Part shown: positions 7,451 to 52,637 of the stretch, piece by piece | How positions within the stretch are numbered: position 1 is the stretch's first letter | Layout of the letters: each line of letters begins with the position of its first letter | NCBI GenBank assembly: GCA_012840345.1 | Contig: DULO01000050.1 | Span: forward strand, 1-61,576 | Direction of reading: 5' to 3' | Length of the DNA: 61,576 nt | Source of the DNA: Candidatus Fermentithermobacillaceae bacterium | Lineage (GTDB): Bacteria; Bacillota; Sulfobacillia; Fermentithermobacillales; Fermentithermobacillaceae | The notes under the pieces: model-generated | What the model was told of the DNA's origin: nothing | The model's database searches: none | The model's input: the letters and a program-made list of their open reading frames with translations, nothing else | Program-made: the position numbers and the translations under genes

Positions 7451-8872
7451 TTACTTCCCGAGCTGGTGGAAAGCGGGCTTGTGATCAGGCGGCATGGCGC
7501 ACTTGTACTTCTTGCCGCCGGTCCTTGCGAGGAACTCTTCCTTCGCCTTGGCGATGATGTCCGGAGACGTCAGGATCTCGAACCCCGCTTCAGCCATCAC
7601 CTTCGCTGCAGCGATCATACCGGCGTGACCGATGCCCATACCCGCTTGCGCGGTGTATTGCCAAGAGTGGCCGGGCGTTCCCAACGCGTTACACGCCGTG
7701 GTGAACTGCGCGGTCGGGCAGCACCAGCTGACGTCGCCGACGTCAGTGGAGCCCTTGGGTTCGTCGGGAGTATCGGGCCTCGGCACCAAGGTGTTGTTGA
7801 TGAGCTGGGACTTGACCTCTTCGGGCACCTGAGCGTCCTTGAAGAAGGCCTCTTTCGTGCCCGGTTCAAAGGTCTTCACCAGTTCCTCGGCAAACTTAAG
7901 TTCCTCTTCGCCGAAGACGGGAGGCCCGACTCTCTGCATGGCCTCGTCGAGCACGTTCTCGAGGACGGTGTTAGGGATGACGTTGTAGATGGCGTCCAAG
8001 AGTTCGACCTCGCATTTGGTCTCTGTCATCTGTGCGGCTCCGTAAGCGCAGTTCAAGACTCTCTGATACAGGGCCTCGACTTCCTCTTGCTGGGGAGCGC
8101 GGACGTAGAACCACGCTGTCGCTTTAGCGGGTACCACGTTGGGCTGGCTTCCGCCGTTGGTGATGACGTAATGGATCCGGGCCTTTGGCGACATGTGCTC
8201 GCGGAGGAACTCCACGCCCATGCCGGTCAGCATGATCGCGTCTAGGGCGCTGCGCCCGTTGTACGGGTCTCCCGAGGCGTGCGCCGTCCTCCCGTGGAAG
8301 GTGATGTTCATGGACGTGACCGCCAAGGACGTCGAGCCGCGCACTTGATTGAGAGTGCCAGGGTGCCAGGTCAGGCAGACGTCGCAGTCGTCAAAGAGGC
8401 CGGCGCGGGCCATGAAGGCCTTGCCGCCGAAGTTCTCCTCGGCCGGGCATCCGAAGTACTTGATGGTTCCCGGGAGGTTCCTCGCCATCATCTCCTGCTT
8501 AAGTCCGATGACCGCCCCGAAGGCGCCGGCTCCCAGCAAATTGTGGCCGCATCCGTGGCCCGCTCCGCCGGGCACCAGTTCTTCCCTCCGGGGGATGGCT
8601 TTCTGAGATACCCCGGGCAAGGCGTCGTACTCGCCCAAGAATCCGATGACGGGTTTGCCTGAACCCCAAGTGGCCACAAGGGCCGAGGGCATGTCAGCCA
8701 CGCCCAAGGTCACTTGGAAACCTTCGGCTTCCAGCGCTTTGGCCAACACCGCGGCGGACTCGTTTTCGTGAAGTCCCACCTCAGCCAGCGCCCAAATCTG
8801 GTCCGAAACTGACGTTATAACGTCTTTCTTCTGGTCAATGTACTTGATGGCCGTTTCGGCCTTCGCTCCCAC
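7451..8872 (-). CDS. AbgB-like M20 family amidohydrolase
   Basis: 473 residues, the length of p-aminobenzoyl-glutamate hydrolase subunit B (AbgB) and related M20D peptidases, which split N-acyl or amino-acid conjugates in the cytoplasm. Metal-site motifs are GHGCGHNLLG (Cys/His), CPAEENFGGK (Glu pair), CLTWHPG and, near the end, PGHSWQYTAQAGMGIGHAG. The dimerisation/lid domain is the central NITFHGRTAHASGDPYNGRS to FYVRAP segment. The start is GTG 8872 with GAGGAGG upstream. It is the last gene of the operon, 62 bases after module gene D1 and before a strong terminator. No AbgA partner or AbgT transporter is present; the four membrane genes upstream occupy the place a transporter would normally hold. 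Confidence 0.88.
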   Translation of the reverse strand: MGAKAETAIKYIDQKKDVITSVSDQIWALAEVGLHENESAAVLAKALEAEGFQVTLGVADMPSALVATWGSGKPVIGFLGEYDALPGVSQKAIPRREELVPGGAGHGCGHNLLGAGAFGAVIGLKQEMMARNLPGTIKYFGCPAEENFGGKAFMARAGLFDDCDVCLTWHPGTLNQVRGSTSLAVTSMNITFHGRTAHASGDPYNGRSALDAIMLTGMGVEFLREHMSPKARIHYVITNGGSQPNVVPAKATAWFYVRAPQQEEVEALYQRVLNCAYGAAQMTETKCEVELLDAIYNVIPNTVLENVLDEAMQRVGPPVFGEEELKFAEELVKTFEPGTKEAFFKDAQVPEEVKSQLINNTLVPRPDTPDEPKGSTDVGDVSWCCPTAQFTTACNALGTPGHSWQYTAQAGMGIGHAGMIAAAKVMAEAGFEILTSPDIIAKAKEEFLARTGGKKYKCAMPPDHKPAFHQLGK

Positions 8873-8934: not shown

Positions 8935-9579
8935 CTACTTCACAGGCGGAATCAGGTGTATCCAATCGCCGAACAGGAATTTCAGCCTCGGGATGAAGAG
9001 GCCCAACCGCGCCATGATTGTGGTCCCGAACACCGCCCCGAAAGACACCATCAAGATGAAACGCCCGACCAAAGCGCTCTTGTCGATGAGCTTTTGGAAC
9101 GTCTTGTTGCCCAAGACTGAACCGTTCTCGCCCCGTGAACCGATTATGAAGAAGAACACGCTGATGGCTGTGACGTTGGCTATCAACGTAAATACCGCGT
9201 TGAGACTGTTCAGGGGGATGATGGCTCCTCTGATCTGGGTTATGATCCCGGCGTCGATCACCCCTGTGATAGTTACGGCCGCGGCGACGCCGACCAAGTA
9301 AGCCAGGGAGTACCGGCTGAGCCACGCCATGCCCGGGATGAAACGGGCGAACAAGAGAACGCCGAGAACAACCGGTATGAGCGCGCTCCACTGGCCGTTC
9401 TTAAGGGGAGTCAAGCCTAGGTCGCGCACGTTGGTCCAGCCCATGACCGCGAGGTGGGCGAGGGATAGTCCCAAATACAAGTGCTCGCACACCCTGAAAA
9501 ACGGGTTCTCCTTAAACAGGTAGCTGTATATTCCAAGCGACATGATCGCCGCGAGCCAGATCTTGGGGTCATTAGACAT
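8935..9579 (-). CDS. Module gene D, copy 1: multispanning membrane protein of unknown function
   Basis: 214 residues with about six hydrophobic segments and no recognised domain. It is paralogous to the product at 26824-27465: both have an early ENPFFRVCEHLYLGL / DNPAYRFAEHTFVGL block, the central pair ARFIPGMAWLSRYSL / TRYIKPIAWLSRYSL, a late SFGAVFGTTIMARLGLFI / AFGAAFGNTVMARVSLFL block, and the same ending (FLFGDWIHLI / FLLGNWLKLI). The invariant AWLSRYSL and FGA(V/A)FG segments probably line a functional surface. The gene overlaps the C gene by 8 bases and has a weak ribosome site, so translation is probably coupled. It is the fourth gene of a five-gene operon ending in the M20 hydrolase. 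Function unknown; likely an integral subunit of a complex. Confidence 0.75.
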   Translation of the reverse strand: MSNDPKIWLAAIMSLGIYSYLFKENPFFRVCEHLYLGLSLAHLAVMGWTNVRDLGLTPLKNGQWSALIPVVLGVLLFARFIPGMAWLSRYSLAYLVGVAAAVTITGVIDAGIITQIRGAIIPLNSLNAVFTLIANVTAISVFFFIIGSRGENGSVLGNKTFQKLIDKSALVGRFILMVSFGAVFGTTIMARLGLFIPRLKFLFGDWIHLIPPVK

Positions 9580-10408
9580 TTTTCTTCGCCCCCTGTTTTC
9601 CGTTCTTGCCGTCCTTTTTCTGCTTCCAGTAGACGATGTTGCCGCCGATCATGAGAAGCAGCAGGTACAGGTGCCCGATAGACTGGGCGTCCATGGACTG
9701 GGTTGCCAGGCCGGGCATGTTTATCTTCTGTTCGTAGAAGGCGGCCCCTTTGACTCCCGAGATCAGGCCAACTAGCTGACCGTTCTTGAAATAGACGATT
9801 GCTTCGGGAGTGGATAGCGCGATATTGCCTGAGATGCATGGGACCTGGTATTTCGCCCACACGTGCCGCGCGAGCCAGAGGTGGTCGTCGCCCGCCGTGT
9901 AGCAGGATATAACGGAAATGTCCTTGATGCTCTTCACGTCCGCCCACAACGGATAGTCCGTGAGAGGGGTACCGTAATGGTCTTGCTGGTAAGCGGCCCG
10001 GATGTTGTCAGCCATCGATGCCAAGGCCGTCTCGCCGCCCGCCCGGTAGGGGAGGATCACTAAGTCCTTTCCGTAAACATATCCGTAATCAGACTCTGCC
10101 AAGGCCCGGATTTTCTCGGCGTACATGGTACCGTCCGGAACAAAGGTGGCCATTATGATGCGGTGCTGCTTTTCCATGTGATGACGGGCCACCGCGAGCG
10201 CCATGGGCCACAGCTCGCCTTCGTTGGACGGGGCCGTCTCAAGTACCATAATGCTTATGCTGCCCTGCGGGAGGTTGTCGATGAAACTGTAGGCGGCTTC
10301 CCCCTCGGGGCTCGGGCCCAGAGGCAGCTTCAGAGGGAAAATCAGCGGGAGAAGCACTGCCACCGTCAGCACAATCCATATAATGTGGGTTTGCTTAAGT
10401 TGCTGCAT
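9572..10408 (-). CDS. Module gene C, copy 1: membrane-anchored protein with large extramembrane domain
   Basis: 278 residues. A hydrophobic N-terminal segment (residues 9-26, rich in Ile/Leu/Val) and a C-terminal one (IGHLYLLLLMIGGNIVYW) flank a soluble domain of about 210 residues. Compared with the paralogue at 25965-26789 the conserved landmarks are F-I-D/E-x-L/M-P-x-G-S, (Y)KPGGE / YRAGGE, the IKD segment, GLISGVKGAAFYE / ALIAGMKGAAEYE, and MDAQSxxH just before the last membrane segment. The domain alternates strands and helices like a nucleotide- or ligand-binding alpha/beta fold, but no Walker motif is present. Start ATG 10408 overlaps the B stop codon as TAATG. The orientation of the domain (inside or outside) cannot be settled by eye. 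Confidence 0.75.
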   Translation of the reverse strand: MQQLKQTHIIWIVLTVAVLLPLIFPLKLPLGPSPEGEAAYSFIDNLPQGSISIMVLETAPSNEGELWPMALAVARHHMEKQHRIIMATFVPDGTMYAEKIRALAESDYGYVYGKDLVILPYRAGGETALASMADNIRAAYQQDHYGTPLTDYPLWADVKSIKDISVISCYTAGDDHLWLARHVWAKYQVPCISGNIALSTPEAIVYFKNGQLVGLISGVKGAAFYEQKINMPGLATQSMDAQSIGHLYLLLLMIGGNIVYWKQKKDGKNGKQGAKKNV

Positions 10409-11031
10409 TAGTCCTGCCTCCCCGCCATGTAAGTTCGCTCCAGACCCAAGATGACGCGAATGCTCATAACGACCATGCCCAGGGATCCGCCGATCGTGAT
10501 GGCGCGGATGGCAGCCGCGTTAGGCGTGTCGATGATCCAGGCCGACACGGCGGGGATCGCCTCGGAAATGGCAGCCCCGATCCCCACCTGGCCCAAGAGC
10601 ACGACGGCGCCGGTCACCATCAACACTGCCGCCTGCCAGTTTCGAATCCTAAAAGCCCTCCAACAAGCGCTGGTCATATAGAACAACGTGAACGAGTACA
10701 TTGTGCTCGCGGCCGGCTGGTACAGGTTCTGCCAGATGTACTGGTACTCAGCTGAGGTGGTGGACTTCGCCACGCCCAAGACGAAATACGAGACGAACGC
10801 GACCATGAAAATGCAGCTGTACACCCAGTTTTTCTTGCGGCCGATGATATTCTTGCCGTGCAGCCGGAACATGTTGACCCCGCCCAAGGCAAGGGCAAAC
10901 GCCGCGACGATGTTCTGCCACCGGACTATCTGGGTGGACATGTCAACAACGGTCTGGGAGTTGAAGAAGTAGCCCGCCAATACGATTACGCCGGTTACGA
11001 ACGCTACTAACACGGGCCCTTGACGTTTCAT
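10408..11031 (-). CDS. Module gene B, copy 1: multispanning membrane protein of unknown function
   Basis: 207 residues with about six predicted transmembrane segments. It is a paralogue of the product at 25294-25935. Shared marks are GGVNMFRLHGK / GMVNLAQIHGR after the second segment, YSFTLFYMTSACWRAFRIR / YSTLVFYIGSAAYRSFRIR in the middle, and the ending VILGLERTYMAG / IMLGIERGYLGG. The conserved, positively charged R-x-F-R-I-R and ER-x-Y segments probably sit on the cytoplasmic face. ATG 11031 is 11 bases after the A gene, and the stop overlaps the C start. No domain family is recognised. The constant order A-B-C-D in both copies argues that the product works with the other three. Confidence 0.75.
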   Translation of the reverse strand: MKRQGPVLVAFVTGVIVLAGYFFNSQTVVDMSTQIVRWQNIVAAFALALGGVNMFRLHGKNIIGRKKNWVYSCIFMVAFVSYFVLGVAKSTTSAEYQYIWQNLYQPAASTMYSFTLFYMTSACWRAFRIRNWQAAVLMVTGAVVLLGQVGIGAAISEAIPAVSAWIIDTPNAAAIRAITIGGSLGMVVMSIRVILGLERTYMAGRQD

Positions 11032-11042
11032 CTTGGTTCACC

Positions 11043-11804
11043 TCACTTGGTAAGCAAAGTGGAGATCGAATCGTTACCGAAGGTAGCCAGAAGGCTTCCT
11101 ATGATCATCAGCACGACGGCCAAGGCTTTCCCCACTTCCCCGGCGGTGAGGCCTCCTACTTCAGTGGGTTCCTTTGACAGGTAGGTGCCCGCCGCGAATA
11201 TCTCTTCGGAGATGAGCGTGTAGTCACAGCTGGCCACGAAGAACGGGAGCTGGTGGTAGTTGGCTGTCCCGCCGATTTGGGACGCGCCGGCCAGGTTGGC
11301 GGCTTCGGCGAAGAGCATGGACTCGTAATAGTAGTTGCCGAACAACATGGCCCCCGCGACTTTTTCCCTTTGGTACAGCCCCAATACACCGGCCTTTGAC
11401 CCGTCGCCGGGCATGTACAGCACATCCGACGGGTTGTACTCCTCGACCTTGCCTTCTCTAAGATAAGCCGCTCTCATAATCTCTTGACACATGGGTTCCA
11501 TCTCAGGTAGCGGGGCGACAACAAACAAGCGCGCGTCGTACTTGGCTGATTGGCTGGCGACGTAGTCGAGAATCCTCATGCTCGCGAACCCCTGTGCCTC
11601 CAGAGCGGTGCCGCCGAGGACGAACGCCATGGGGCGCCCCATCTCGGTTACCCGGCCGACCAACTCATCGATGGCGTCGAGTCCGGGAATCCTACGGATC
11701 CTAAGAACCCCCGTCTTCTTGAACGCCTCCGCGGAAAACCAAAGTACGCCGGTCAAAACCAACAACAGTGTTAGTGAAGCCAACCTTCCCTGGACCATTC
11801 CCAC
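11043..11804 (-). CDS. Module gene A, copy 1: membrane-anchored DUF6754-like protein
   Basis: 253 residues: a hydrophobic N-terminal anchor (residues 8-25), a domain of about 200 residues and a C-terminal transmembrane segment (about 228-247). The conserved core GLDAIDELVGRVTEMGRP and the later QLPFFVASCDYTLISEEI plus YLSKEP match what I remember of the uncharacterised family DUF6754. The paralogue at 24474-25247 shares GLDAxDExxGRxTEMGRP, GTANxxQ(L/I)PFFVAxCDY, EE(I/L)(F/Y)AA and YLS(K/R)EP. It is the first gene of the operon, with GGAGGTG before ATG 11804 and a sigma-A-like promoter at 11849-11876. No enzymatic motif is visible. Family recognition is from memory and has not been checked. 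Confidence 0.75.
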   Translation of the reverse strand: MGMVQGRLASLTLLLVLTGVLWFSAEAFKKTGVLRIRRIPGLDAIDELVGRVTEMGRPMAFVLGGTALEAQGFASMRILDYVASQSAKYDARLFVVAPLPEMEPMCQEIMRAAYLREGKVEEYNPSDVLYMPGDGSKAGVLGLYQREKVAGAMLFGNYYYESMLFAEAANLAGASQIGGTANYHQLPFFVASCDYTLISEEIFAAGTYLSKEPTEVGGLTAGEVGKALAVVLMIIGSLLATFGNDSISTLLTK

Positions 11805-19983: not shown

Positions 19984-22900
19984 GTGTCGGAAGACAGAGA
20001 AAAAAACGTGCAGGTGAGTTTCAGCGAAAACGCCATGGCGGTGTTGGAGAAGCGCTACTTGAGAAAGGACGAATCGGGCAAGCCGATTGAGACTCCCGCG
20101 GACATGCTGTGGCGGGTAGCCAAGAACATCGCCTTGATGGATGTCCTTCACTGTCCCGCGCTAAAGAAGAAGGGCCGCGGAAAAGCGGCAGGTAAAGCCG
20201 AAAGGGTCTGTGAGATGTCCGGAGCTCCAGACGATGGCGGCGCTGACGGCGAACTCCTGGACGTTTCGGAGTGGGATTGGGCGACCCTCAGGATGGCTCA
20301 CAAGCGTTTAGTGGAAGAAGGGGACATGACCGCGTCCTGGGAAGACGTTGAGGCGGCCGTTAACGCTAACCGGGGACGGCTTAGAGCCACAGCCCAACGG
20401 TTTTTCGAGTTGATGGCGGAGGGCAAGTTTATGCCCAACTCGCCGGCCCTTATGAACGCGGGGCGCGAGTTGCAGCAGCTGTCGGCCTGTTTTGTGTTGC
20501 CCGTGGACGATACCATGGTCAGCATTTTTGACTCGTTGAAATACGCGGCGCTGATACACCAGTCCGGAGGCGGCACCGGTTTTAGCTTCAGCAGGCTTCG
20601 CCCAAAGAATGACGTGGTCCGCTCCACCGGGGGAGTGGCTTCGGGTCCGGTATCCTTCATGAAAGTTTTTAACGCCGCTACCGAGGCCGTTAAGCAGGGC
20701 GGCGTCAGGCGCGGAGCCAACATGGGCATCCTCAGGGTGGACCATCCTGACATCTTGGAGTTCATTACCTGCAAGACAGATACCAAAGAACTCACCAACT
20801 TCAACATATCAGTGGGGATTACCTCAAAGTTCATGGAAGCGGTGGAAGCCGGGACTGACTACGACCTGGTGAACCCCAGGAACGGGCAGGTTGTCGGCAA
20901 GGCAAACGCCCGAAAGGTGTTTGAGACCATCGTCGAGCAGGCCTGGAAGAACGGGGAACCGGGCATCATCTTCCTCGACCGCCTGAACAAGGACAACCCC
21001 ACGCCGGCGTTGGGTGAGATAGAGAGCACTAACCCGTGCATCACAGGAGATGCTCTCGTACCTACTGAGGAAGGCTTGCTACGGCTGGACGAGATAGTCC
21101 GCCGTTGGAGCACTGGTGGCCTGCGCATAATGATCGACAAGCGTGTAGCAGGTTCGCCTGGAAGCATTGATGCCACTACTGGCCAGCCGCTTATCGAACC
21201 GGGCACGGATTGGTCTGTCATATCTCGTGCGTTCAGATCAGGAGTGAAGCCGGTTGTTCGTGTGACCACTAAGCACGGGATGTCCATAGAAGTCACTCCT
21301 GACCACAAGATGATGACTACTCGCGGTTGGGTGAAAGCTGGAGACCTTCGAATAGGCGAAGACAGAGTGTTGGTGCAGTCCGGCGCCGGCGAGTTCTCAA
21401 GCGAAAGCAAATTGCCTGTGGATGTTTGCAATGAACACCGTGGTCGAAATGGACGAACCTACAGGACGAGACTTCCCCAGACTTGGTCCCGGGAACTTGG
21501 GATCGTGCTGGGGTGGCTTGTAGGGGATGGTTGGCTGAGAGAATCGGACAAGAACGGTAGAGTGGGATTCACCTTCGCGGCGAGTGACTCGGAGGTTATG
21601 TCCGTCATCCATAACGTAATGACAGACTGGTATGGAGTTGACGTCAAACCGGTATTGCGATCAAACGGTGTATATCACCTGAGCTACCACTCGAAGTGGT
21701 TAGTGAGTTTCTTCGAGAAACTTGGGGTCAAGGCAGTTAAAGCTGGGCAAAAGAGGGTTCCATATAGCGTTTTCACAGCTCCCAAGGACGCTGTTACTGG
21801 GTTCCTTCAGGCTCTGTTTACAGCGGACGGTACTGTGGCGAACCACAACAACGGGACAACTTACGTGAGGCTGACATCCAAGTCCGTTGATCTCCTAAGA
21901 GATGTTCAGAAGCTCCTACTGAACTTCGGTATCCGTTCAACTATCTACGATCGAAGCAGGGAGCCGCGGGATTCCTTCCAATACCGGAGCCGGGGTGGAA
22001 ACGAACGCACCTATCGCTGTGACGGCGTGTGCTACGAGTTACAAGTCAGTGCCGAGAACCTGCCTCGCTTCTTTGAAGAAATCGGGTTTCTCGGAGACAA
22101 GCACGCTGGAGTTATCGAGTCAACAAGTCGAAGGACGAGGGGATTCTACCGACAGGCTGCCGAGGATATCGTGGAATCAGTCGAGCCTGTGGGAGAAAAG
22201 GAGGTCTTCGACCTTACTGAGCCGTTCAGTCACAGCTTTATTGCCAACGGCTTTGTAGTCTCCAACTGCGGTGAACAGCCTCTCTTGCCGTTCGAAGCGT
22301 GTTGCCTGGGGTCGATCAACCTCGGACGCTTCACTAGGTCAGTTTGGGGAACTGACCTAGATCTGGAGAAAGCCATTGACTGGGATGGCTTGGCGGCGGC
22401 AGTTCGTGCGGGAGTGCACTTCCTAGATAACCTGATCGACGCCAACAAATACCCACTGCCCGAGATCGACAAGATGGCCCGCGGCAACAGGAAGATTGGG
22501 CTCGGGATTATGGGTTGGGCCGACATGCTGCTCGATCTGAAGATTCCGTACAACTCCCAAGAGGCGCTGGACCTTGCCACAAAGGTGATGGCATTCATTG
22601 AGAAGGAGTCCATGGCCGAGTCCGCCGAACTGGCGGCGAGCCGGGGCGTGTTCCCCAACTGGGAGAAAAGCGTGTTCGCCGCTAAGGGGCTGAAGGTGCG
22701 TAACGCCACAACGACCACTATCGCCCCGACCGGCACAATAAGCATCATTTGCGGAGCGTCGTCAGGCATTGAGCCGTTGTTCAGCCTAGCCTTCACTAGG
22801 CACGTGCTTGGGAAGAGCATGGTCGAAGCCAACCCGAGGTTTGAGCGTGTAGCAAAGGCGCTTGGCTTCTATTCGGACGAATTGATGGAGAAGGTCGCGT

Positions 22901-23784
22901 CGGCGGGGTCTCTGCAACACGTCTCAGGAGTCCCGGAAGAAATCCGCAAGGTGTTTGTTACCGCCCACGAGATTACTCCCGAATGGCATATCAAAATGCA
23001 GGCTGCTTTCCAGAAGCACACCCATAACGCGGTTTCCAAGACTGTAAACTTCCCCAAAGAAGCCACAAGAGATGACGTCAAGCAAGTTTTTATCCTAGCG
23101 AACAAGCTGGGCTGCAAGGGAGTTACGGTCTACCGGGACGGCAGTAGGGAAGAACAGGTCTTGACGGTAGGCGCCGACAAGAAGGGAAGCGCGGCTTCCG
23201 GGGCGACAGGCCAGGAGACGCTGTTCGGCGATACGCCCAAACCTGAGGAAAAGGGCAAGACCCGTGTGAACGGCGTCTGGGGCAGAGTCAGGCCTATCGA
23301 GCGACCGTCCAGACTCGATGGGTTCACGGCAATGAAGGAGACGCCTGTCGGCAAACTCTTCTTGACCCTGAACACTCTCGAGGGCCATCCTGTAGAACTC
23401 TTCGCCCAGATCGGTAAAGCGGGCAGCGACGTATCGGCGTTTACCGAGGCCATCGCCAGGCTCATATCTATCGCGCTAAGGTCCGGCGTGGATCCTCAGG
23501 AGGTTGCCGACCAACTCCAGGGCATTGGCGGCTCCAGAGCCATCGGGTTTGGCCCGAACCGGGTAAGGTCCGTACCTGACGCTATCGGCCAGTTCCTCGA
23601 CGAGTACTTGCAGTACGGTTCGGAAGGCCCCAAGGACGAGGCGGAGGAGACAGGTCCCGTGCAGGATACGTTGCCCTTGACTCCCGGCAAGAGATTCAGC
23701 CTCTGCCCCTCATGCGGCACATGGAGTCTGGTGCACGTCGAAGGCTGCCAGAAGTGCATGGCTTGCGGCTACAGCGAGTGCTAA
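19984..23784 (+). CDS. nrdJ: Class II (B12-dependent) ribonucleotide reductase containing an intein
   Basis: 1266 codons. Removing the 410-residue intein leaves an 856-residue adenosylcobalamin-dependent ribonucleotide reductase that makes deoxynucleotides. Extein motifs are MPNSPALMNAGRELQQLSACF, SGGGTGFSFSRLRP, GVRRGANMGIL, the active-site NP/CGEQPLLPFEACCLGSINLG (split by the intein between Pro and Cys) and TTTIAPTGTISIICGASSGI. The C-terminal zinc ribbon FSLCPSCGTWS to CQKCMACGYSEC is typical of NrdJ. The start is GTG 19984 with AGGAGGAA. No B12 riboswitch fits in the 91-base space after nrdR. Use of class II enzyme suits life with little or no oxygen. Confidence 0.93.
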   Translation: MSEDREKNVQVSFSENAMAVLEKRYLRKDESGKPIETPADMLWRVAKNIALMDVLHCPALKKKGRGKAAGKAERVCEMSGAPDDGGADGELLDVSEWDWATLRMAHKRLVEEGDMTASWEDVEAAVNANRGRLRATAQRFFELMAEGKFMPNSPALMNAGRELQQLSACFVLPVDDTMVSIFDSLKYAALIHQSGGGTGFSFSRLRPKNDVVRSTGGVASGPVSFMKVFNAATEAVKQGGVRRGANMGILRVDHPDILEFITCKTDTKELTNFNISVGITSKFMEAVEAGTDYDLVNPRNGQVVGKANARKVFETIVEQAWKNGEPGIIFLDRLNKDNPTPALGEIESTNPCITGDALVPTEEGLLRLDEIVRRWSTGGLRIMIDKRVAGSPGSIDATTGQPLIEPGTDWSVISRAFRSGVKPVVRVTTKHGMSIEVTPDHKMMTTRGWVKAGDLRIGEDRVLVQSGAGEFSSESKLPVDVCNEHRGRNGRTYRTRLPQTWSRELGIVLGWLVGDGWLRESDKNGRVGFTFAASDSEVMSVIHNVMTDWYGVDVKPVLRSNGVYHLSYHSKWLVSFFEKLGVKAVKAGQKRVPYSVFTAPKDAVTGFLQALFTADGTVANHNNGTTYVRLTSKSVDLLRDVQKLLLNFGIRSTIYDRSREPRDSFQYRSRGGNERTYRCDGVCYELQVSAENLPRFFEEIGFLGDKHAGVIESTSRRTRGFYRQAAEDIVESVEPVGEKEVFDLTEPFSHSFIANGFVVSNCGEQPLLPFEACCLGSINLGRFTRSVWGTDLDLEKAIDWDGLAAAVRAGVHFLDNLIDANKYPLPEIDKMARGNRKIGLGIMGWADMLLDLKIPYNSQEALDLATKVMAFIEKESMAESAELAASRGVFPNWEKSVFAAKGLKVRNATTTTIAPTGTISIICGASSGIEPLFSLAFTRHVLGKSMVEANPRFERVAKALGFYSDELMEKVASAGSLQHVSGVPEEIRKVFVTAHEITPEWHIKMQAAFQKHTHNAVSKTVNFPKEATRDDVKQVFILANKLGCKGVTVYRDGSREEQVLTVGADKKGSAASGATGQETLFGDTPKPEEKGKTRVNGVWGRVRPIERPSRLDGFTAMKETPVGKLFLTLNTLEGHPVELFAQIGKAGSDVSAFTEAIARLISIALRSGVDPQEVADQLQGIGGSRAIGFGPNRVRSVPDAIGQFLDEYLQYGSEGPKDEAEETGPVQDTLPLTPGKRFSLCPSCGTWSLVHVEGCQKCMACGYSEC
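21037..22266 (+). mobile_element. LAGLIDADG-type intein inside nrdJ
   Basis: 410 residues (nrdJ residues 352-761), inserted exactly before the catalytic Cys of NPCGEQ. Splicing block A begins CITGDALVPTEEGLLRLDE; block B contains VRVTTKHGMSIEVTPDHK with the TxxH motif; block F/G is FDLTEPFSHSFIANGFVVSN followed by the +1 Cys. Two DOD endonuclease motifs are visible: LGWLVGDGWL and FLQALFTADGTV, each with a catalytic acidic residue, so homing may still be active. The penultimate residue is Ser, not the usual His, next to the terminal Asn. Third-position base use looks less GC-biased than in the exteins, which suggests horizontal origin. Confidence 0.93.
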
Positions 23785-24473: not shown

Positions 24474-25247
24474 ATGAAAATTGCCGCTGGTTATGTCTTT
24501 TCCTTTTGGTTTGAAGCCGTGTTCCTCGCGACTGTGATCGTCATGATTACCAGGGCACGGAAGGGCATGAAGATCCCCGAGATCTACAAGGTGGCTGGAC
24601 TGGACGCCATGGACGAAGCGATCGGTCGCTGCACAGAAATGGGCAGGCCGGTTCACTTCGCTCCAGGTATCGGTGACGTTCAGAACGCTCAGACCTTGGC
24701 CGCGATGTCCATTCTGAGCTACGTCGCTAAGCAGTGCGCCAAGTACGACACTGACCTTATCGACACCAACAGGAACGTTATCGTTTACAACATGTCAGAA
24801 GCCATCGTTAAGCAGGCGTATATTGAGGCCGGCAAACCCGACGCGTTCAAGCCTGAGAACGTGCGGTGGATTTCAAACGACCAGTTTGCTTACGCCACCG
24901 GCGTTACGGGCATTATGTATCGCGAAAAGCCCGCCGCCAACCTGCTTCTCGGTGCCTTCTGGGCGGAGTCCTTGATCTTCGCCGAGGTCGGTGCCGCGGC
25001 TGGTGCTATCCAGATCGCAGGTACTGCCAACACCGCGCAGATCCCCTTCTTTGTGGCAGCGTGCGACTACTGCCTCATCGGTGAGGAGCTTTATGCAGCC
25101 AGTGCCTACCTTAGCAGAGAGCCCGTTCTTCTGGGCAGCTTGGTCGCTCAGGACTGGGGCAAAATGGGCGGTGTCGTCCTGATAGTCCTTGGCACTCTGC
25201 TTGTCAGTGTCGGCAGCCCGTTCCTGAAAGACCTTCTGGCCAAGTAG
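24474..25247 (+). CDS. Module gene A, copy 2: membrane-anchored DUF6754-like protein
   Basis: 257 residues, paralogue of the 11043-11804 product. N-terminal membrane segment (residues 7-25), central domain of about 200 residues, C-terminal membrane segment (VVLIVLGTLLVSVGS). Conserved with copy 1 are GLDAMDEAIGRCTEMGRP, IAGTANTAQIPFFVAACDY, IGEELYAASAYLSREP and a final K-x-x-x-V-V-L-I segment. Copy 2 has an insert-like IGDVQNAQTLAAMSILSYVA where copy 1 has TALEAQGFASMRILDYVA, so the two align closely through the middle. A strong AAGGAGGTG ribosome site precedes ATG 24474. It is the first gene of an operon of four tightly spaced genes. Function unknown. Confidence 0.75.
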   Translation: MKIAAGYVFSFWFEAVFLATVIVMITRARKGMKIPEIYKVAGLDAMDEAIGRCTEMGRPVHFAPGIGDVQNAQTLAAMSILSYVAKQCAKYDTDLIDTNRNVIVYNMSEAIVKQAYIEAGKPDAFKPENVRWISNDQFAYATGVTGIMYREKPAANLLLGAFWAESLIFAEVGAAAGAIQIAGTANTAQIPFFVAACDYCLIGEELYAASAYLSREPVLLGSLVAQDWGKMGGVVLIVLGTLLVSVGSPFLKDLLAK

Positions 25248-25293
25248 GTATCCCATTACAAGATAGCTTATCAACCGAGAGGAGGTGTACCGG

Positions 25294-25935
25294 GTGAAGA
25301 AGGAAGTCCCGCTAGCCATATGCTTCATCGTAGCCTTGATCTACATTGTGTCCAACTACTTCACAGGCGTGGAGTTTTTGGCCACGATGAAGGATCTTCT
25401 CGATAAATGGTATCTCTCAGTTGACGCCATAGTAGTGGCCATCGGTATGGTCAACCTGGCGCAGATCCACGGGCGGCGCGTGGCGAACAAGAGAGAGGGC
25501 TGGCTTTTCAGCCTCTGGCTCATGCTGTGCATGTTCGGGATGTTCTTTGTGAGCATCTTCTGGTTCAAGGGCACCACCCACGTGGGCTGGAACTTCATGT
25601 ACAAGATGATCATCTCGCCGATGAACGCTACCGTATATTCAACGCTGGTGTTCTATATCGGTTCCGCAGCTTACAGGTCCTTTAGGATCCGCAGTATGGA
25701 AGCCGGCATACTTCTGGTCGTCGCGTTCATCATGATGCTGGGCCGAGTTCCTCTTGGAGCCATGCTTTTGGGCGGCAACCAGGCTTTTGCCACCGCGGCG
25801 GACTGGCTGCTCAGGGTGCCTAACTCCGCCGGCATGAGAGGAATTCAGATCGGCGCCGCTCTGGGTGGTATCGCCACAGCGCTGCGCATCATGCTCGGAA
25901 TTGAACGCGGGTACCTTGGCGGTACAGGAGAATAA
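25294..25935 (+). CDS. Module gene B, copy 2: multispanning membrane protein of unknown function
   Basis: 213 residues with about six hydrophobic segments, paralogue of the 10408-11031 product. Shared features are GMVNLAQIHGRR, the central YSTLVFYIGSAAYRSFRIR and the C-terminal IMLGIERGYLGG. The best start is GTG 25294, eight bases after AGGAGG; a GTG three codons upstream overlaps that ribosome site. It follows gene A by 46 bases and precedes gene C by 29. No family is recognised. The same charged loop motifs in both copies suggest that it contacts the other subunits on the cytoplasmic side. Confidence 0.75.
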   Translation: MKKEVPLAICFIVALIYIVSNYFTGVEFLATMKDLLDKWYLSVDAIVVAIGMVNLAQIHGRRVANKREGWLFSLWLMLCMFGMFFVSIFWFKGTTHVGWNFMYKMIISPMNATVYSTLVFYIGSAAYRSFRIRSMEAGILLVVAFIMMLGRVPLGAMLLGGNQAFATAADWLLRVPNSAGMRGIQIGAALGGIATALRIMLGIERGYLGGTGE

Positions 25936-25964
25936 CATTCCAAGACAAAAGGAGGTGAACAACC

Positions 25965-26789
25965 GTGTGGGAAAAAATAGCTAACGTTGACAGACGAGTT
26001 ATCTACGCTTTGATGATACTCGTTATCGCGCTGGCTCTGCTGAACCCGATTGGCATGGCTATCGTACCTTCGCAAGCCACCATCGACGCTTACAATTATA
26101 TCGAAGCCATGCCTAACGGCAGCATCGTTTGGCTGGGCATGGAGTTCTCGTCCGGCGGTGTTACCGAACTGATTCCTGCCGCTCAAGCCATAATCAGGCA
26201 GGGGTTCAAGAAGGATTTCAAGTTCGTGTGCGCCGGAATGTGGCAACAGGCCGGAGACATGGCTGAGATGGCCTTCAGCATAGTGGAAAAGGAGTTTCCA
26301 GATAAGCAGTACGGAGTGGACTGGGTAAACATCGGATACAAGCCTGGTGGCGAAGTGTTGCTGCCCGCCTTGATCAACGATGTGAATGAGGCTGCCAAAG
26401 GAATTGACCATAGGCAGAACCAACTTAGCTCTCTCCCGCTCATGTCCCAGTTCAAGACCATTAAGGATGCCGACCTGATCATCATCTTCTGCACCGGTAC
26501 TCCCGGTGAGCAGCAGTATATCAAGCACGTTACGGGTCCCCTCAATATCCCGCTTATAGAGTCGGCCATTTCGGTTAGTGTTCCCGGCATCATGCCGTTC
26601 GTCCAGTCGGGTCAGATCAAGGCCTTGATCGCGGGCATGAAGGGTGCCGCCGAATACGAAGCGCTGGTTGGTGTCCCTGGCCCTGCTATGGCGGGTATGG
26701 ACGCTCAGTCCTTCTCTCACGGTTTGATTTTGTTGTTCATGATCTTGGGGAACATTGGCTACTACGCTACCCGGAATAAGAAGGGCTAG
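25965..26789 (+). CDS. Module gene C, copy 2: membrane-anchored protein with large extramembrane domain
   Basis: 274 residues, paralogue of the 9572-10408 product. A hydrophobic segment at residues 10-28 and another at the C-terminus (GLILLFMILGNIGYY) flank the soluble domain. Landmarks shared with copy 1 are YNYIEAMPNGSIVWLG, YKPGGEVLLPALINDV, FKTIKDADLIIIFCTG, IKALIAGMKGAAEYEA and GMDAQSFSHG. The start is GTG 25965 after AAAGGAGGTG. The repeated strand-helix pattern (LIIIFCTGTPGEQQYIKHV) looks like a Rossmann-type or periplasmic-binding-type fold, but no ligand motif is recognised. Confidence 0.75.
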   Translation: MWEKIANVDRRVIYALMILVIALALLNPIGMAIVPSQATIDAYNYIEAMPNGSIVWLGMEFSSGGVTELIPAAQAIIRQGFKKDFKFVCAGMWQQAGDMAEMAFSIVEKEFPDKQYGVDWVNIGYKPGGEVLLPALINDVNEAAKGIDHRQNQLSSLPLMSQFKTIKDADLIIIFCTGTPGEQQYIKHVTGPLNIPLIESAISVSVPGIMPFVQSGQIKALIAGMKGAAEYEALVGVPGPAMAGMDAQSFSHGLILLFMILGNIGYYATRNKKG

Positions 26790-26823
26790 CCGGGTTGGCC
26801 CAAATTAGGGAGGTGAAACTGGA

Positions 26824-27465
26824 ATGCCTGAGACCTTAGTGAACGTGGGAACCCATTTGCAGGCCATATTCACGATCCTGTTGATCACGGTCATCTTTAA
26901 AGACAACCCGGCGTACCGCTTCGCGGAACACACCTTCGTAGGTTTGTTCGCCGGGTACACTGTGGCCCTGTCATATTTCCAATATGTCCGGCCCAACGTT
27001 AAGGACCAGTTGATCGGCAAGGGCGAGCTTCACTGGATCGTCCCGATCATTGTCGGTCTCTTGATGTACACGCGGTATATTAAGCCCATCGCTTGGTTGT
27101 CCAGGTACTCGCTGTGCTTCACCCTGGGTATCGGTACCGGCTACGTTCTGTCAAAGGACATGAAGCCGTTCTTCGTGGACCAGGTGAGAGCGACGTTCCT
27201 GCCGCTGTGGGGAACCGGTGACTGGTGGACGACCACTTCCAACTGGATATACGTGGTCGGCACCGTGACGGCGCTGGTATACTTCTTGTTCACGCTACAG
27301 AAGAAGGGTGTGCAGGGAGGCATCTCCAAGATCGGGCGAATCACGATGATGGTCGCCTTTGGAGCGGCGTTCGGCAACACAGTCATGGCCCGTGTGTCGT
27401 TGTTCCTCGGTAGGATGCAGTTCCTCCTCGGGAACTGGCTAAAGCTAATCTCGATTCGCGTATAG
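26824..27465 (+). CDS. Module gene D, copy 2: multispanning membrane protein of unknown function
   Basis: 213 residues, about six transmembrane segments, paralogue of the 8935-9579 product. Conserved blocks are FKDNPAYRFAEHTFVGL, TRYIKPIAWLSRYSLCF, MMVAFGAAFGNTVMARVSLFL and FLLGNWLKLI. ATG 26824 follows GGGAGGTGAAA. A rho-independent terminator lies 50 bases downstream, which closes the operon after the fourth gene. In copy 1 the D gene is instead followed, without a terminator, by the M20 hydrolase gene. Confidence 0.75.
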   Translation: MPETLVNVGTHLQAIFTILLITVIFKDNPAYRFAEHTFVGLFAGYTVALSYFQYVRPNVKDQLIGKGELHWIVPIIVGLLMYTRYIKPIAWLSRYSLCFTLGIGTGYVLSKDMKPFFVDQVRATFLPLWGTGDWWTTTSNWIYVVGTVTALVYFLFTLQKKGVQGGISKIGRITMMVAFGAAFGNTVMARVSLFLGRMQFLLGNWLKLISIRV

Positions 27466-27515
27466 ATTTTCAAGGATTCGTGCGTTACCGCAGATGCCTA
27501 AAGGTGTCTGCTCAG

Positions 27516-27546
27516 AGTGGCGGGCTAGTCTCGCCACTTTTCTTTT
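27516..27546 (+). terminator. Rho-independent terminator after module 2
   Basis: AGTGGCG (27516-27522) pairs with CGCCACT (27532-27538) and is followed by TTTCTTTT. It lies 50 bases after the D2 stop codon and upstream of the aldolase gene. Confidence 0.85.
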
Positions 27547-27613
27547 GCTGCAGGACAGGGAGGGTACATGGCGAAATCATATAGACGGTACTCACGGGAA
27601 AGGAGAGACCGCC

Positions 27614-28501
27614 GTGTTTAGAGGCATATTCGCCCCGATTCCCACGCCGTTCGTTGACGAGGAAATCGCCTACGACAAGTTGGAAGAGAACGTCGCCAAA
27701 TGGGGCAAGACACGCCTGGCGGGCCTAGTGGTTTTTGGGTCAAACGGTGAGGCTCCTTACATCGACGAAGATGAAAAGGTCGAGGTTTGGAGCTTTGTCC
27801 GTAAGTGCCTGCCCAAAGACAAGGTCATGATTGCCGGCGCGGGAATGGAAAGCACCAGGGCGACTATTCGCTTGGTGAGGAAAGCGGCTCAAGCCGGCGC
27901 GGACGCGGCCTTAGTGTTGAACCCAAGCTTTTTCAAGGCCAACATGAAGGATGCCGCTCTGGAAACCTACTACAAAGACGTTGCCGATGCGTCTCCGATC
28001 CCCATTCTCGTCTACAACATGCCAGGAAACACAGCCCTCAACATTTCAAGTTCCCTCGTGGTCCGCTTATCCCAGCACCCCAACATCGTGGGGGTCAAGG
28101 ATTCCAGCGGCAACATAGTGCAGATCTCCGAGATTTTACGAGGGGTCCCCGACGACTTCTCCGTGTTTGCCGGTTCGGCCAGTTTCCTCTTGCCTTCGGT
28201 GATAATGGGAGCCGTGGGCGGCACTCTGGCGACCGCCAACGTAGTACCGGACCTCTGCGTGGAGCTCCTCGAACTGGCGACCCAAGGAAGAATACAGGAA
28301 GCCCAGAAGCTGCAGAAATCCCTCCTGGCTTTGAACGCCGCGGTGACGTCCAGATTCGGTGTGGCCGGCTTAAAGGCGGCCCTGGATATGATCGGCTACT
28401 ACGGAGGTCCTCCGAGGCGTCCAATGCTTCCCGCGGGAGAACCGGAAAAGGCGGAAATACGTAGGATCCTCACTGAATTGGGCTTGCCGCTTGTGGAATA
28501 G
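27614..28501 (+). CDS. DapA-superfamily aldolase, closest in motifs to 4-hydroxy-2-oxoglutarate aldolase
   Basis: 295 residues of the class I aldolase family that includes dihydrodipicolinate synthase. The Schiff-base lysine lies in GVKDSSGN and the catalytic Tyr in PILVYNMPGNT. The substrate loop reads GSNGEAPY; DapA usually has GTTGE, while 4-hydroxy-2-oxoglutarate aldolase (HOGA) has GSNGE. The start is GTG 27614, eight bases after AAAGGAGAG; the open frame upstream runs through the terminator at 27516-27546 and is not coding. It is followed by a homoserine-dehydrogenase-like gene (28 bases) and a class V aminotransferase. HOGA yields pyruvate and glyoxylate, a natural substrate for the third gene. 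The role as true DapA is less likely but not excluded. Confidence 0.82.
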   Translation: MFRGIFAPIPTPFVDEEIAYDKLEENVAKWGKTRLAGLVVFGSNGEAPYIDEDEKVEVWSFVRKCLPKDKVMIAGAGMESTRATIRLVRKAAQAGADAALVLNPSFFKANMKDAALETYYKDVADASPIPILVYNMPGNTALNISSSLVVRLSQHPNIVGVKDSSGNIVQISEILRGVPDDFSVFAGSASFLLPSVIMGAVGGTLATANVVPDLCVELLELATQGRIQEAQKLQKSLLALNAAVTSRFGVAGLKAALDMIGYYGGPPRRPMLPAGEPEKAEIRRILTELGLPLVE

Positions 28502-33018: not shown

Positions 33019-34167
33019 TCAACGCCGCGGATCCCGAAACCTCGACACGTCGCCGCCGCGGTTGGAAGGTTGCTTGGTCCGGGTGTTTTCCCGGTCATCC
33101 GAACGGTCCGGTTTTCCGGTAACGGATTCTCTGTCTTTGCCTTTATCCACATCCTTACCTTTATCTTTATCCTTATCCTTATCCTTGTCTTTGCCTTTCA
33201 GCGCGTCGTCGTCCGCGCCCTTATCTTTGTCCTTGTCCTTGTCTTTATCCTTGTTCTTGTCCTTTTCCTTGGCTTTGAGCATGTTGTCAAGTTCCTTAAG
33301 CCACTTCTTGGTGACGTCCTTCAGATACTTCTCCGGCTCTTCCTGCTGGATGACGTTCTCCAGGTTGACCTCAGGGAGTTTGCTCCTGATGGTGTCCCAT
33401 ATCTTGATGATATCGCTAGGCTCCCCTTGAGGCTCTTGGGAAGGATCGACTCGGGGTTCGCCGGGCTCTTGGGGCTTCGCGGGTACATGGGACAGGGCCC
33501 AGGACGCCGCGCGTCCCGCGGAGATTCCCATCTTCTTGGCTTCCTCACGCGCCGCCAGGTCCAGAGTCACCATAGCTACCGAGACTTCAGGAGCGGCTGG
33601 AGGAGGATCCGTATCTCCGGGACCCGCGGGTTCCGCCCAAATCTCCTTGGCCACGCCGGTGACCACCATGTCTTCCAGGTGTTTCACCTCACGGTCCTCA
33701 TCTACGGGGACCAACGCGATAACTACATTGGTCGAGCCCTTCGATTCCTGGGCCTTGACCAGCTCCGCCATCACAACGTCCACAGGTTTGAACTTGTAGT
33801 CGATGGACTTCAGTATCTCAACCCCCGCTTGGTCCAATGCTACAGCGGAAGTGACCTGGTTTCTATCGTTTATCTCAAGTTCGATGCTGCCGTAAGAATC
33901 AAAAGTCATGTAAGCCACGGCCGGCCTGGCCATAAGGTATTCGTGGTAGCCGAAAAAGGACAGGAATATCATGACAACCGACAGCGCCAGGGCCGGAATT
34001 AGGCGCCCGAAGATTATCTGAGAAGCCACAGGAGGAGACAGCGTGACGACATCGCCCGGGAAAACGCCTTCGTGGGCGGCCTTAAGAGTCAGGAACTCCC
34101 CGGACTTGGTCATCACCGTCATCCTGTTGCCCTTGCGCTCCAAGACTATGGCTTGTCTACGGTTCAT
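33019..34167 (-). CDS. rsgI: RsgI-type anti-sigma-I factor with Lys/Asp-repeat tail
   Basis: 382 residues. The N-terminal 50 (RQAIVLERKGNRMTVMTKSG to FPGDVVTLS) are the RsgI anti-sigma domain. A single membrane segment follows (LIPALALSVVMIFLSFFGYH), then an extracellular RsgI-type domain (AVAYMTFDSYGSIELEIND to GVAKEIW). The C-terminal 90 residues are Lys/Asp-rich, including an uninterrupted KDKDKDKDKDKDK-like run, instead of a carbohydrate-binding module or protease domain. The start overlaps the sigI stop by four bases. In related organisms RsgI holds SigI at the membrane until an outside signal triggers cleavage. The charged tail could bind cell-wall polymers or cations; this is inference. 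Confidence 0.85.
   Translation of the reverse strand: MNRRQAIVLERKGNRMTVMTKSGEFLTLKAAHEGVFPGDVVTLSPPVASQIIFGRLIPALALSVVMIFLSFFGYHEYLMARPAVAYMTFDSYGSIELEINDRNQVTSAVALDQAGVEILKSIDYKFKPVDVVMAELVKAQESKGSTNVVIALVPVDEDREVKHLEDMVVTGVAKEIWAEPAGPGDTDPPPAAPEVSVAMVTLDLAAREEAKKMGISAGRAASWALSHVPAKPQEPGEPRVDPSQEPQGEPSDIIKIWDTIRSKLPEVNLENVIQQEEPEKYLKDVTKKWLKELDNMLKAKEKDKNKDKDKDKDKDKGADDDALKGKDKDKDKDKDKGKDVDKGKDRESVTGKPDRSDDRENTRTKQPSNRGGDVSRFRDPRR
33135..33275. repeat. Hexanucleotide microsatellite coding for the Lys/Asp tail of RsgI
   Basis: Two runs of CTTATC/CTTGTC-type hexamers (about 33137-33199 and 33220-33275) encode alternating Lys and Asp on the minus strand. Hexamer slippage keeps the frame, so the length of the tail can vary between strains without loss of the protein. 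Confidence 0.8.
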
Positions 34168-34928
34168 CTGGGTTCACCCCTCGCTACGCTGACATCCAAA
34201 AACTCCTGAAGGGTCGGGAAGTCAAAGGACAACATAACCGCGACAGCGGTGATATAGTCTTTTTGTCTCTCAATGGTCTTCTTTGAAACCGGAACGCTGT
34301 CTCCTACGATCCTAATAATGTCATCCACAGGCAACTTGTGACTGGATACAAGTTTTCCGCGGAGCTCATCGTTTTCCGCCACCAGCGCGGCCAAACGGAT
34401 CGCTCTCTCCCTGGCGTCAACGTGTTTTGGAGTTCGTTTTACCACTCTTTCGAGACTGAGTCCGTACTGGTGAAGGAGTTCTCTCCACCTGTCCATCTCG
34501 TCCCTTCGCTCCAAGACTTTTTCCCAGTTAGGATTCGCCTCAAGAGCTCCAAGGGTTTCGGGCCAGTCATCGTCGTCGTCGTTTACCAGAGACGAAAAGG
34601 GTGCCTCATTCCTCCGCTTTTCTTTGCGGAAGTAATCGATGAGGCGCCTCCTGATCACTGTGGCCGCGAACGCCACAAACCCGGGCTTCGGGCTGGTATA
34701 GGCCATCAAGGCTTCATCAAACGCCTGAAGGGCCACGCTCACTTCTTCATCCTGCCCGACCACCAGAAAACGTCTGGTCGCCGCCGAAGCCGTCTTCAAG
34801 ACAAATGGCATATAGTCACGGATCAGGTTTTCCCGCGCTTGGGCATCCCCGTTCCGGGCTCTCGCGACTCTGGATTCGACCGTTTCGTTGGAAGAGTGTT
34901 CCATAAATGAGATCAATACGCCAGTCAC
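34164..34928 (-). CDS. sigI: RNA polymerase sigma factor SigI
   Basis: 254 residues resembling the SigI group of sigma-70-family factors. Region 2 is visible as ARNGDAQARENLIRDYMPFV, EEVSVALQAFDEALMAYTSP and KPGFVAFAATVIRRRLIDYF; the C-terminal part (RTPKHVDARERAIRLAALVA, later VSKKTIERQKDYITAVAVML) is the SigI-specific domain that replaces region 4. GTG 34928 is eight bases after GAAGGA; an ATG eight codons later lacks a ribosome site. The rsgI gene overlaps its stop codon, the usual order. It likely responds to heat or cell-envelope/polysaccharide signals depending on the RsgI sensor. Confidence 0.88.
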   Translation of the reverse strand: MTGVLISFMEHSSNETVESRVARARNGDAQARENLIRDYMPFVLKTASAATRRFLVVGQDEEVSVALQAFDEALMAYTSPKPGFVAFAATVIRRRLIDYFRKEKRRNEAPFSSLVNDDDDDWPETLGALEANPNWEKVLERRDEMDRWRELLHQYGLSLERVVKRTPKHVDARERAIRLAALVAENDELRGKLVSSHKLPVDDIIRIVGDSVPVSKKTIERQKDYITAVAVMLSFDFPTLQEFLDVSVARGEPR

Positions 34929-51536: not shown

Positions 51537-52637
51537 TTGGGTCTCCTCCACGGACTCCTCGCCATTACCTGGCAGCAGGCCGTCATGATTGGCCTGGGAT
51601 TCGTCCTCATCTATCTCGCCATCGCCAAGGAATACGAACCGGTATTGCTCTTACCTATTGGTTTTGGGGCCATCCTTGCTAACATTCCCGGGTCCTCCGC
51701 CGTAGGGGAACACGGCTTTCTAAACATTCTTTACGAAGCGGGCATCGTAACCGAGCTTTTTCCGCTCCTTATCTTCATCGGGATCGGCGCGATGATCGAC
51801 TTCGGACCGCTCTTCGAGCAGCCAACCATGCTGTTCTTTGGCGCCGCCGCCCAGATAGGCATATTTCTGACTATGGGCCTTGCCATGCTGGCGGGTTTCA
51901 GCCTGCGAGAGTCGGCCTCCATAGGGATGATAGGGGCTGCCGACGGTCCCACGTCCATATATGTAGCCAGCTTGTTCGCCCCGCGGCTGTTGGCCCCCAT
52001 TTCTGTGGCCGCGTACTCGTACATGGCTTTGGTCCCGCTGATTCAGCCGCCCGTAATAAGGGCGTTGACCACCCCCGAGGAAAGGCGCATCCAGATGAAA
52101 CCCTTGGAGGCGAGAGCCGTTCCCAAGGCGGTCTATATCGCGTTTCCCATACTTGTAACCGTGCTGGCGGGACTTATCGCGCCGGTTAGTCTTTCCCTGG
52201 TCGGTACCCTTATGTTTGGAAACCTGTTGAGGGAATGCGGAGTGGTGGAGCGCCTGTCCAGAACGGCTCAAAACGAGCTTGCCAACGTGGTCTCCCTGCT
52301 CTTGGGGATAACCATAGGTTCCACCATGGTGGCTTCCGAGTTCCTAACGCCTTCCACCATCTTGATCATAGGCGCGGGGCTGGTCGCGTTTATCCTAGAT
52401 ACGGCCGGCGGAGTGATCTTCGCCAAACTGGCGAACATGTTCTTGAAGACCAAAATCAACCCCATGATCGGGGCTTGCGGGATATCGGCGTTTCCCATGT
52501 CGGCCAGGGTGGTCCAACGGATGGCTCAACTGGAGTCGCCCGGGAACTTCGTGCTGATGCACGCCGTAGGCGCCAACGTCGCCGGCCAGATAGCGTCGGT
52601 CATGGCGGGAGCGGTTATCCTAGCGTTGGTGAAGTAG
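51537..52637 (+). CDS. Beta subunit of a sodium-translocating carboxylate decarboxylase (OadB/GcdB family)
   Basis: 366 residues, nine or more transmembrane segments. The ion-coupling segments are IGIGAMIDFGPLFEQP, GAADGPTSIYVASLFAPRLL, NLLRECGVVERLSRTAQNEL and the C-terminal INPMIGACGISAFPMSARVV. All match the beta subunit that decarboxylates biotin-bound carboxylate and pumps sodium out. TTG 51537 has AAGGGGGT upstream. No alpha (carboxyltransferase) or gamma subunit is near, so partners must be elsewhere. Placement after pyk suggests a link to pyruvate or oxaloacetate; methylmalonyl-CoA or glutaconyl-CoA are alternatives. Confidence 0.92.
   Translation: MGLLHGLLAITWQQAVMIGLGFVLIYLAIAKEYEPVLLLPIGFGAILANIPGSSAVGEHGFLNILYEAGIVTELFPLLIFIGIGAMIDFGPLFEQPTMLFFGAAAQIGIFLTMGLAMLAGFSLRESASIGMIGAADGPTSIYVASLFAPRLLAPISVAAYSYMALVPLIQPPVIRALTTPEERRIQMKPLEARAVPKAVYIAFPILVTVLAGLIAPVSLSLVGTLMFGNLLRECGVVERLSRTAQNELANVVSLLLGITIGSTMVASEFLTPSTILIIGAGLVAFILDTAGGVIFAKLANMFLKTKINPMIGACGISAFPMSARVVQRMAQLESPGNFVLMHAVGANVAGQIASVMAGAVILALVK

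Follow-up and report, generated by a model that had tools for sequence, protein, structure and literature searches.

ABCD, a four-gene membrane block of Fermentithermobacillaceae found across bacterial phyla, and its co-occurrence with a MutL-family ATPase

Among the described systems that bear on the locus reported here, group II energy-coupling factor (ECF) transporters combine a shared EcfAA'T unit with many dispersed S components, and GlmL and the diol dehydratase reactivases have been proposed to act as chaperones or reactivases. We analysed 61,576 nucleotides of a Candidatus Fermentithermobacillaceae bacterium (contig DULO01000050.1 of assembly GCA_012840345.1; this whole stretch is called the window below), which carries two copies of a block of four membrane protein genes, A, B, C and D (ABCD). 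Judged from sequence, ABCD appears to be one half of a larger system, whose other half comprises the proteins M, S, X and Y. We consider it an evenly balanced question whether ABCD is the interchangeable membrane half of an undescribed ATP-dependent machine with an M-S half common to all copies. That this would be a new mechanistic class in bacteria and archaea, in which the ASKHA-fold ATPase M with its adaptor S powers many ABCD units, is a tentative proposal to which we give slightly less than even weight. Such a machine would probably spend ATP on moving or handling various molecules across the cell membrane. The genes of the two copies in the window are as follows.

A, copy 1: 11804-11043, minus strand; open reading frame (ORF) of the DUF6754 family, helix, predicted cytoplasmic alpha/beta domain, helix
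B, copy 1: 11031-10408, minus strand; ORF for a polytopic membrane protein of about 5-6 helices with conserved RAFR and G.ER
C, copy 1: 10408-9572, minus strand; ORF, helix, predicted extracytoplasmic alpha/beta domain, helix; the most variable subunit
D, copy 1: 9579-8935, minus strand; ORF for a polytopic membrane protein with a conserved WLSR motif
A, copy 2: 24474-25247, plus strand; ORF matching PF20539 (E=4e-98)
B, copy 2: 25285-25935, plus strand; ORF matching copy 1 B by BLASTP
C, copy 2: 25965-26789, plus strand; ORF matching copy 1 C by BLASTP and modelled with AlphaFold2
D, copy 2: 26824-27465, plus strand; ORF matching copy 1 D by BLASTP

With regard to copy 1, a first-pass annotation of the window had described four tightly coupled ORFs with overlaps at B/C and C/D, and the coordinates confirm this (B/C overlap of 1 nucleotide, C/D overlap of 8 nucleotides, and a gap of 11 nucleotides at A/B). 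Its second block at 24474-27465 indeed has the same gene order, with gaps of 29-37 nucleotides and no overlaps. Over almost the full length, BLASTP identity between the copies is 43% for A (4e-58), 31% for B (2e-42), 31% for C (4e-41) and 30% for D (3e-37), a likeness well above chance, and the signature residues quoted in that annotation lie at conserved positions in the family alignments of A-D. The count of two copies was too low, since the genome of the window has ten A genes.

Hidden Markov models built from the window copies found A, B, C and D in similar numbers across 180 loci. Where the flanks were long enough, there were 98 complete single internal ABCD blocks and several further tandem blocks, no established complete locus was short of a partner among A-D, and the genes always followed the order A-B-C-D on the same strand, in some loci as a tandem ABCD-ABCD. 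L088 and L103, each of which seemed to show an A-D pair, cover the same piece of a single genome, where the pair sits beyond the complete ABCD block; the tandem Planctomycetota locus L138 was scored out of order owing to overlapping ORF calls. In 164 unique operons from many phyla, the pairwise distances of A, B, C and D correlate (r=0.68-0.76), and the nearest operon agrees for about 100 of the 164 in every gene pair. Because the order is unbroken and the distances correlate, ABCD is taken to be duplicated and passed on as one unit. The invariant order and the co-divergence thus support the earlier argument from block conservation to one membrane complex; A-D were not seen to occur independently, and none of them is a known transporter subunit by family, profile and PADLOC searches. 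That one-complex proposal was nevertheless incomplete, as conserved partners (M, S, X and Y) are encoded elsewhere in the genome.

The family of the window's organism has 5-15 copies of A per genome, and one member of the class has 27; the same search found no A in 14 well-known genomes. The nearest named relatives are in Candidatus Fermentithermobacillaceae, including the complete genome CP062796.1 of Ca. Fermentithermobacillus carboniphilus. Beyond the class, A is present in bins labelled Cloacimonadota, Zixibacteria, Stahlbacteria/WOR-3, Fermentibacteria, Aegiribacteria, Planctomycetota, Sumerlaeota, Eremiobacterota, Coatesbacteria and Deltaproteobacteria, and in two archaeal bins (Bathyarchaeota and one labelled Thermococci). 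An origin from phages or plasmids was rejected, since A has no relative in the phage and plasmid collections searched.

In many phyla the genes of M and S adjoin ABCD, and in single-copy genomes ABCD and the partners all lie in one locus. The arrangement is X-A-B-C-D-M-S-Y-M in relatives within the class (L043 and L050), X-Y-M-S-A-B-C-D in L120 and in part in L142, L149, L172, L169, L171 and L179, and Y-A-B-C-D-M-S in L268 and L269; the Bathyarchaeota bin (L262) has A-B-C-D-M-S. Where the arrangement of the class relatives could be read through, M-S-Y-M-S was found, at L192, L198, L199, L203 and L207. The genome of the window has X-Y-M-S as a separate tight cluster on contig C101 (L193), apart from the ten ABCD copies seen:

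X: C101 7437-8108; first gene of the X-Y-M-S cluster
Y: C101 8136-8525; second gene of the cluster
M: C101 8570-10465; third gene of the cluster
S: C101 10480-11601; fourth gene of the cluster

M (about 600-660 amino acids) belongs to the MutL Pfam family of ASKHA ATPases, as it matches the whole PF13941 profile (8.9e-124) and conserves all three motifs, namely phosphate-1 (TDxGSTTTKA), phosphate-2 (GVDIGGATTDV) and adenosine (GSGG), in invariant or near-invariant form. S (about 373-470 amino acids) has a barrel-sandwich segment of biotin/lipoyl-like type (RnfC_N, 9.8e-7) and a marginal C-terminal match to KOW. X has two membrane helices followed by a small soluble domain, and Y is a protein of about 110-140 amino acids. 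Profile searches of the PDB gave nothing convincing for M and at best E 0.025 for S. In Cloacimonadota, Planctomycetota, Fermentibacteria and others, M and S are fused in a single ORF of about 820-1,090 amino acids with no ABCD adjoining (L252-L259). Direct partnership of M and S is supported at the sequence level because such fusions occur in several phyla, and M-S seems to be a general partner, in the cytoplasm, for certain membrane complexes.

Co-occurrence was examined in three samples. Among 61 genomes from the class and related groups, with M scored as present above 800 bits, all 33 genomes with A had both M and S, whereas the 28 without A had M in 2 and S in 3 (one S weak); Fisher's test gave p=3e-15 for M and 4e-14 for S, and 1.5e-8 after collapsing families, values to be read in view of the phylogenetic non-independence of genomes within each sample. 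In an even draw of 200 genomes across the phylum, 14 had A and S, 2 had A only, 1 had S only and 183 had neither (p=1.5e-18). Moreover, among 24 genomes from other groups, picked for having A, S was found in 24 and M in 23, usually as one close copy each; the genome without M (G072) is a bin of 1.6 Mb. In G070 and G074, M and S are present although M, S and ABCD lie far apart on the chromosome. The copy numbers are uncoupled, with 1-27 ABCD per genome against about 1-2 close M-S pairs.

In the reading that we favour, M as ATPase, S as adaptor and the small partners X and Y would form the cytoplasmic half. A would offer its highly conserved cytoplasmic domain as the docking site for M-S, and ATP turnover by M would shift the helices of B and D and the extracytoplasmic domain of C. 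This last domain, which differs among the copies, would set the specificity, so that each ABCD copy would serve its own solute. What the sequences show is the conservation of the block, its co-occurrence with M-S, the dispersed architecture, the conserved ATP motifs and the pattern of conservation. The physical complex, the docking of M-S, ATP hydrolysis and the details of topology are what we infer; transport, its direction and its substrates are guesswork, in which transport is the most likely activity because lineages rarely multiply anything else so much, because peptidase and amidohydrolase genes neighbour ABCD, and because fermentation of peptides and amino acids is predicted for this lineage (PMC10215811). 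Our best guess for the substrates is peptides or amide-linked amino acid derivatives. The amplification to 1-27 copies and the peptidase-type neighbours resemble those of transporter families.

The uncoupled copy numbers are also the architecture of group II ECF transporters, that is, one shared unit of low copy number and many dispersed membrane units of differing specificity, and by analogy a shared unit may power ABCD. On the other hand, ABCD, M, S, X and Y have no homology to ABC (ATP-binding cassette) ATPases, EcfT or S components, the ATPase is of ASKHA fold, and there are four membrane proteins to each unit; in none of the eight proteins did an ABC or ECF family score above cut-off.

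Several facts weigh against the shared-ATPase reading, besides the relatedness of the sampled genomes. A closed genome of the phylum (G177) has a divergent ABCD, no S, and only a GlmL-like M; this ABCD, at C1:2551555-2552088 (L271), is the clearest natural departure from the co-occurrence rule and is a candidate for a decayed or independent variant. G102 (78% complete) has A but neither M nor S, and three genomes (G023, G045 and G092) lack A yet carry M or S. The family, PDB profile and Foldseek searches with A-D gave no homology or fold match that points to a transporter, no member of the system has been characterised, and to our knowledge no ASKHA ATPase powers a transporter. Peptidases and amidohydrolases make up about 19 of 139 ABCD neighbours against 8 of 107 background genes, an excess that is weak and not significant, and most ABCD copies are without any co-directional neighbour.

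The second rival in weight holds that M-S is a chaperone or reactivase that assembles or repairs ABCD, and that an ion gradient drives ABCD, which would itself be a secondary transporter or channel. M shares the Pfam MutL family with GlmL, the accessory protein of glutamate mutase, the low and constant copy number of M-S would suit a catalytic helper, and ABCD matches no ATPase family. However, M falls below the curated equivalog and subfamily cut-offs for GlmL (NF040745 / TIGR01319; 217 against 475 bits, and 159 against 204 bits for the GlmL family), has more than 100 extra C-terminal residues compared with GlmL, and is accompanied by S and ABCD, not by glutamate mutase or any other cofactor enzyme. 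Moreover, the conservation of M and S (57% and 49% mean column identity) is at the level of structural subunits. We therefore regard this explanation as rather improbable.

The barrel-sandwich segment of S could also suggest an Rnf-like redox complex, since RnfC and NqrA have barrel-sandwich domains and one S protein matches RnfC_N with E=1e-6. This we consider hardly credible: S has neither an iron-sulphur nor a flavin motif and no invariant cysteine for iron-sulphur clusters, the conserved cysteines of A and M are isolated ones, no flavin, iron-sulphur or Rnf family was matched in A-D, and Rnf partners are absent from the S loci.

With regard to the membrane half, A is a full-length member of DUF6754 (PF20539; E=1.8e-69 for copy 1), scoring 234 bits in copy 1 and 328 bits in copy 2 against a curated cut-off of 27 bits. 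The Pfam entry takes in A alone and not B, C or D, which have no convincing Pfam or NCBIfam match to any family; the block had been called uncharacterised, and A already carries a DUF number. Profile searches of the PDB with A, B, C and D found no related solved structure, the best matches (glutamate racemase for C, 0.3; ClpC for A, 0.26) being judged not convincing. Hydropathy shows two membrane anchors flanking a soluble domain in A and C, as had been proposed, and about 5-6 helices in B and D, close to the six first suggested. AlphaFold2 models from the family alignments with the copy 2 sequences (predicted local distance difference test, pLDDT, 95.8 for A and 96.6 for C) agree, giving a single alpha/beta domain of about 6 strands between two membrane helices; in Foldseek searches of the PDB they matched nothing at E<=0.001, with partial Rossmann-like matches only. 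The invariant residues of B are R131, F133 and G194 (copy 2 numbering). Relationships of A to C and of B to D were rejected, as hhalign shows them unrelated. Matches of B to TMD0_ABC (E 1e-5, 9 of 95 members) were rejected as effects of hydrophobic composition, the window protein being below cut-off.

In other phyla, the N-terminus of A carries an apparent signal peptide together with an FN3-like domain (both by eye), sometimes with a BamB-like beta-propeller, and this N-terminal extension is followed by the first conserved helix and then a stretch rich in K and R. Because these extensions precede helix 1, the DUF6754 domain of A is most likely cytoplasmic. For C, which has a basic tail after the last helix and no signal peptide, these features most simply suggest that the soluble domain is outside and both ends are inside. 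Conservation fits this topology: mean column entropy is 1.51 in the cytoplasmic domain of A and 2.26 in the external domain of C, with mean pairwise identities of 0.45 (A) and 0.34 (C). A variable outside and a conserved inside, together with a single shared set of cytoplasmic partners and the small soluble domain that X carries after its two helices, would also suit a family of receptors or signalling scaffolds, in which C senses outside ligands and A relays to an actin-like platform of M. This seems very improbable to us, as no histidine kinase, GGDEF, methyl-accepting chemotaxis protein or regulator recurs beside the ABCD copies and two polytopic subunits in each unit are unusual for a receptor.

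Extended A proteins outside Firmicutes were found at L145, L158, L132, L155, L138, L174 and L170; that of L174 has a long BamB-like beta-propeller before the first conserved membrane helix, and that of L170 is of similar length. Distant M-S paralogues occur in permease-ATPase-permease-M-S operons, whose permeases are MacB/FtsX-like and whose ABC ATPase is LolD-like (families by eye; L194:4946-11490 and L197:6714-13498, also L201, L205 and L211). In these operons the M-S pair seems to be put to a second use that has not been described, and it may thus serve another kind of membrane complex of MacB/LolCDE/FtsEX type.

Both the extended A of single-copy phyla, which suits macromolecular clients, and the paralogous M-S of these five operons speak for the main rival explanation, an envelope or secretion machine. 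Here ABCD, driven by M-S through mechanotransmission like that of LolCDE, MacB or FtsEX, would act at the surface to extract, export or assemble proteins, lipoproteins or polymers, and the copies would differ in their clients. We consider it unlikely, though deserving of attention, as 27 copies would be unusual for such a machine and no recurrent secreted client gene was seen beside the ABCD copies. In addition, unlike MacB/LolCDE/FtsEX, ABCD has no homology to FtsX or MacB permeases or to an ABC ATPase.

Similarly, the DctM/DctQ or TctA/TctB families that mark TRAP, TTT or other tripartite transporters were not found in A-D by Pfam and NCBIfam. An anti-phage defence system was rejected, since no PADLOC model matched A-D, X, M, S or Y. 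The literature searched does not mention DUF6754 or its accession, and the block, its partners and its architecture were found described nowhere. ABCD/M-S belongs to no known kind of system that we found. Eight protein families from about ten phyla and archaea are concerned, of which A has no more than a DUF number to its name; B, C, D, X and Y lack even that. In Fermentithermobacillaceae the system occupies 20-60 genes per genome, and about half of the genes in the one closed genome of the lineage have no function assigned (PMC10215811). In size, age and spread the system goes beyond what the first-pass annotation stated. If M powers ABCD, a new ATPase fold would join the few engines of membrane machines. 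One shared ATPase locus with many membrane units offers genetics suited to direct experiment.

The genes near ABCD copies encode peptidases or related enzymes of the M20 (copy 1), M14, M24, S9 and DUF885 families and amidohydrolases. In the window, two accessory neighbours were noted:

M20-family amidohydrolase: 7451-8872, minus strand; matches Peptidase_M20 / M20_dimer; accessory, not conserved with ABCD
DHDPS (dihydrodipicolinate synthase)-family aldolase: 27494-28501, plus strand; accessory neighbour downstream of copy 2

The M20 gene begins 62 nucleotides past D of copy 1 on the same strand and is probably co-transcribed with it. The DHDPS-family gene is followed by a homoserine-dehydrogenase-like gene and then a class V aminotransferase, also accessory neighbours, and in the closest relatives (L100-L102) a DHDPS-like gene is likewise seen downstream of ABCD in the sequence. 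In most ABCD orthologue groups the neighbours are not kept across genera, and neighbour enrichment was set aside as suggestive but not significant.

Some neighbours recur locally and are not general. Glycine-cleavage genes lie upstream in Fermentibacteria and L172, and genes for QueT, an ECF S component, lie upstream of ABCD in several genera (L128:6645-7142, L222:2744-3223 and L248:9011-9508). An unassigned small membrane protein is encoded directly upstream of another ABCD group (L216:8187-8696 and L250:3603-4106). Elsewhere in the window, the beta subunit of a Na+-transporting oxaloacetate decarboxylase (51537-52637; OAD_beta, 8.7e-148) hints at a sodium gradient in the organism. A ribonucleotide reductase of 1266 amino acids (19984-23784) has an apparent intein by eye (C-ITGDALVPTEEG ... 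VVSN-C). Finally, at 33019-34928 a sigma-factor-like gene is followed by one for a membrane protein whose repetitive tail is very rich in K and D (RsgI/SigI-like by eye).

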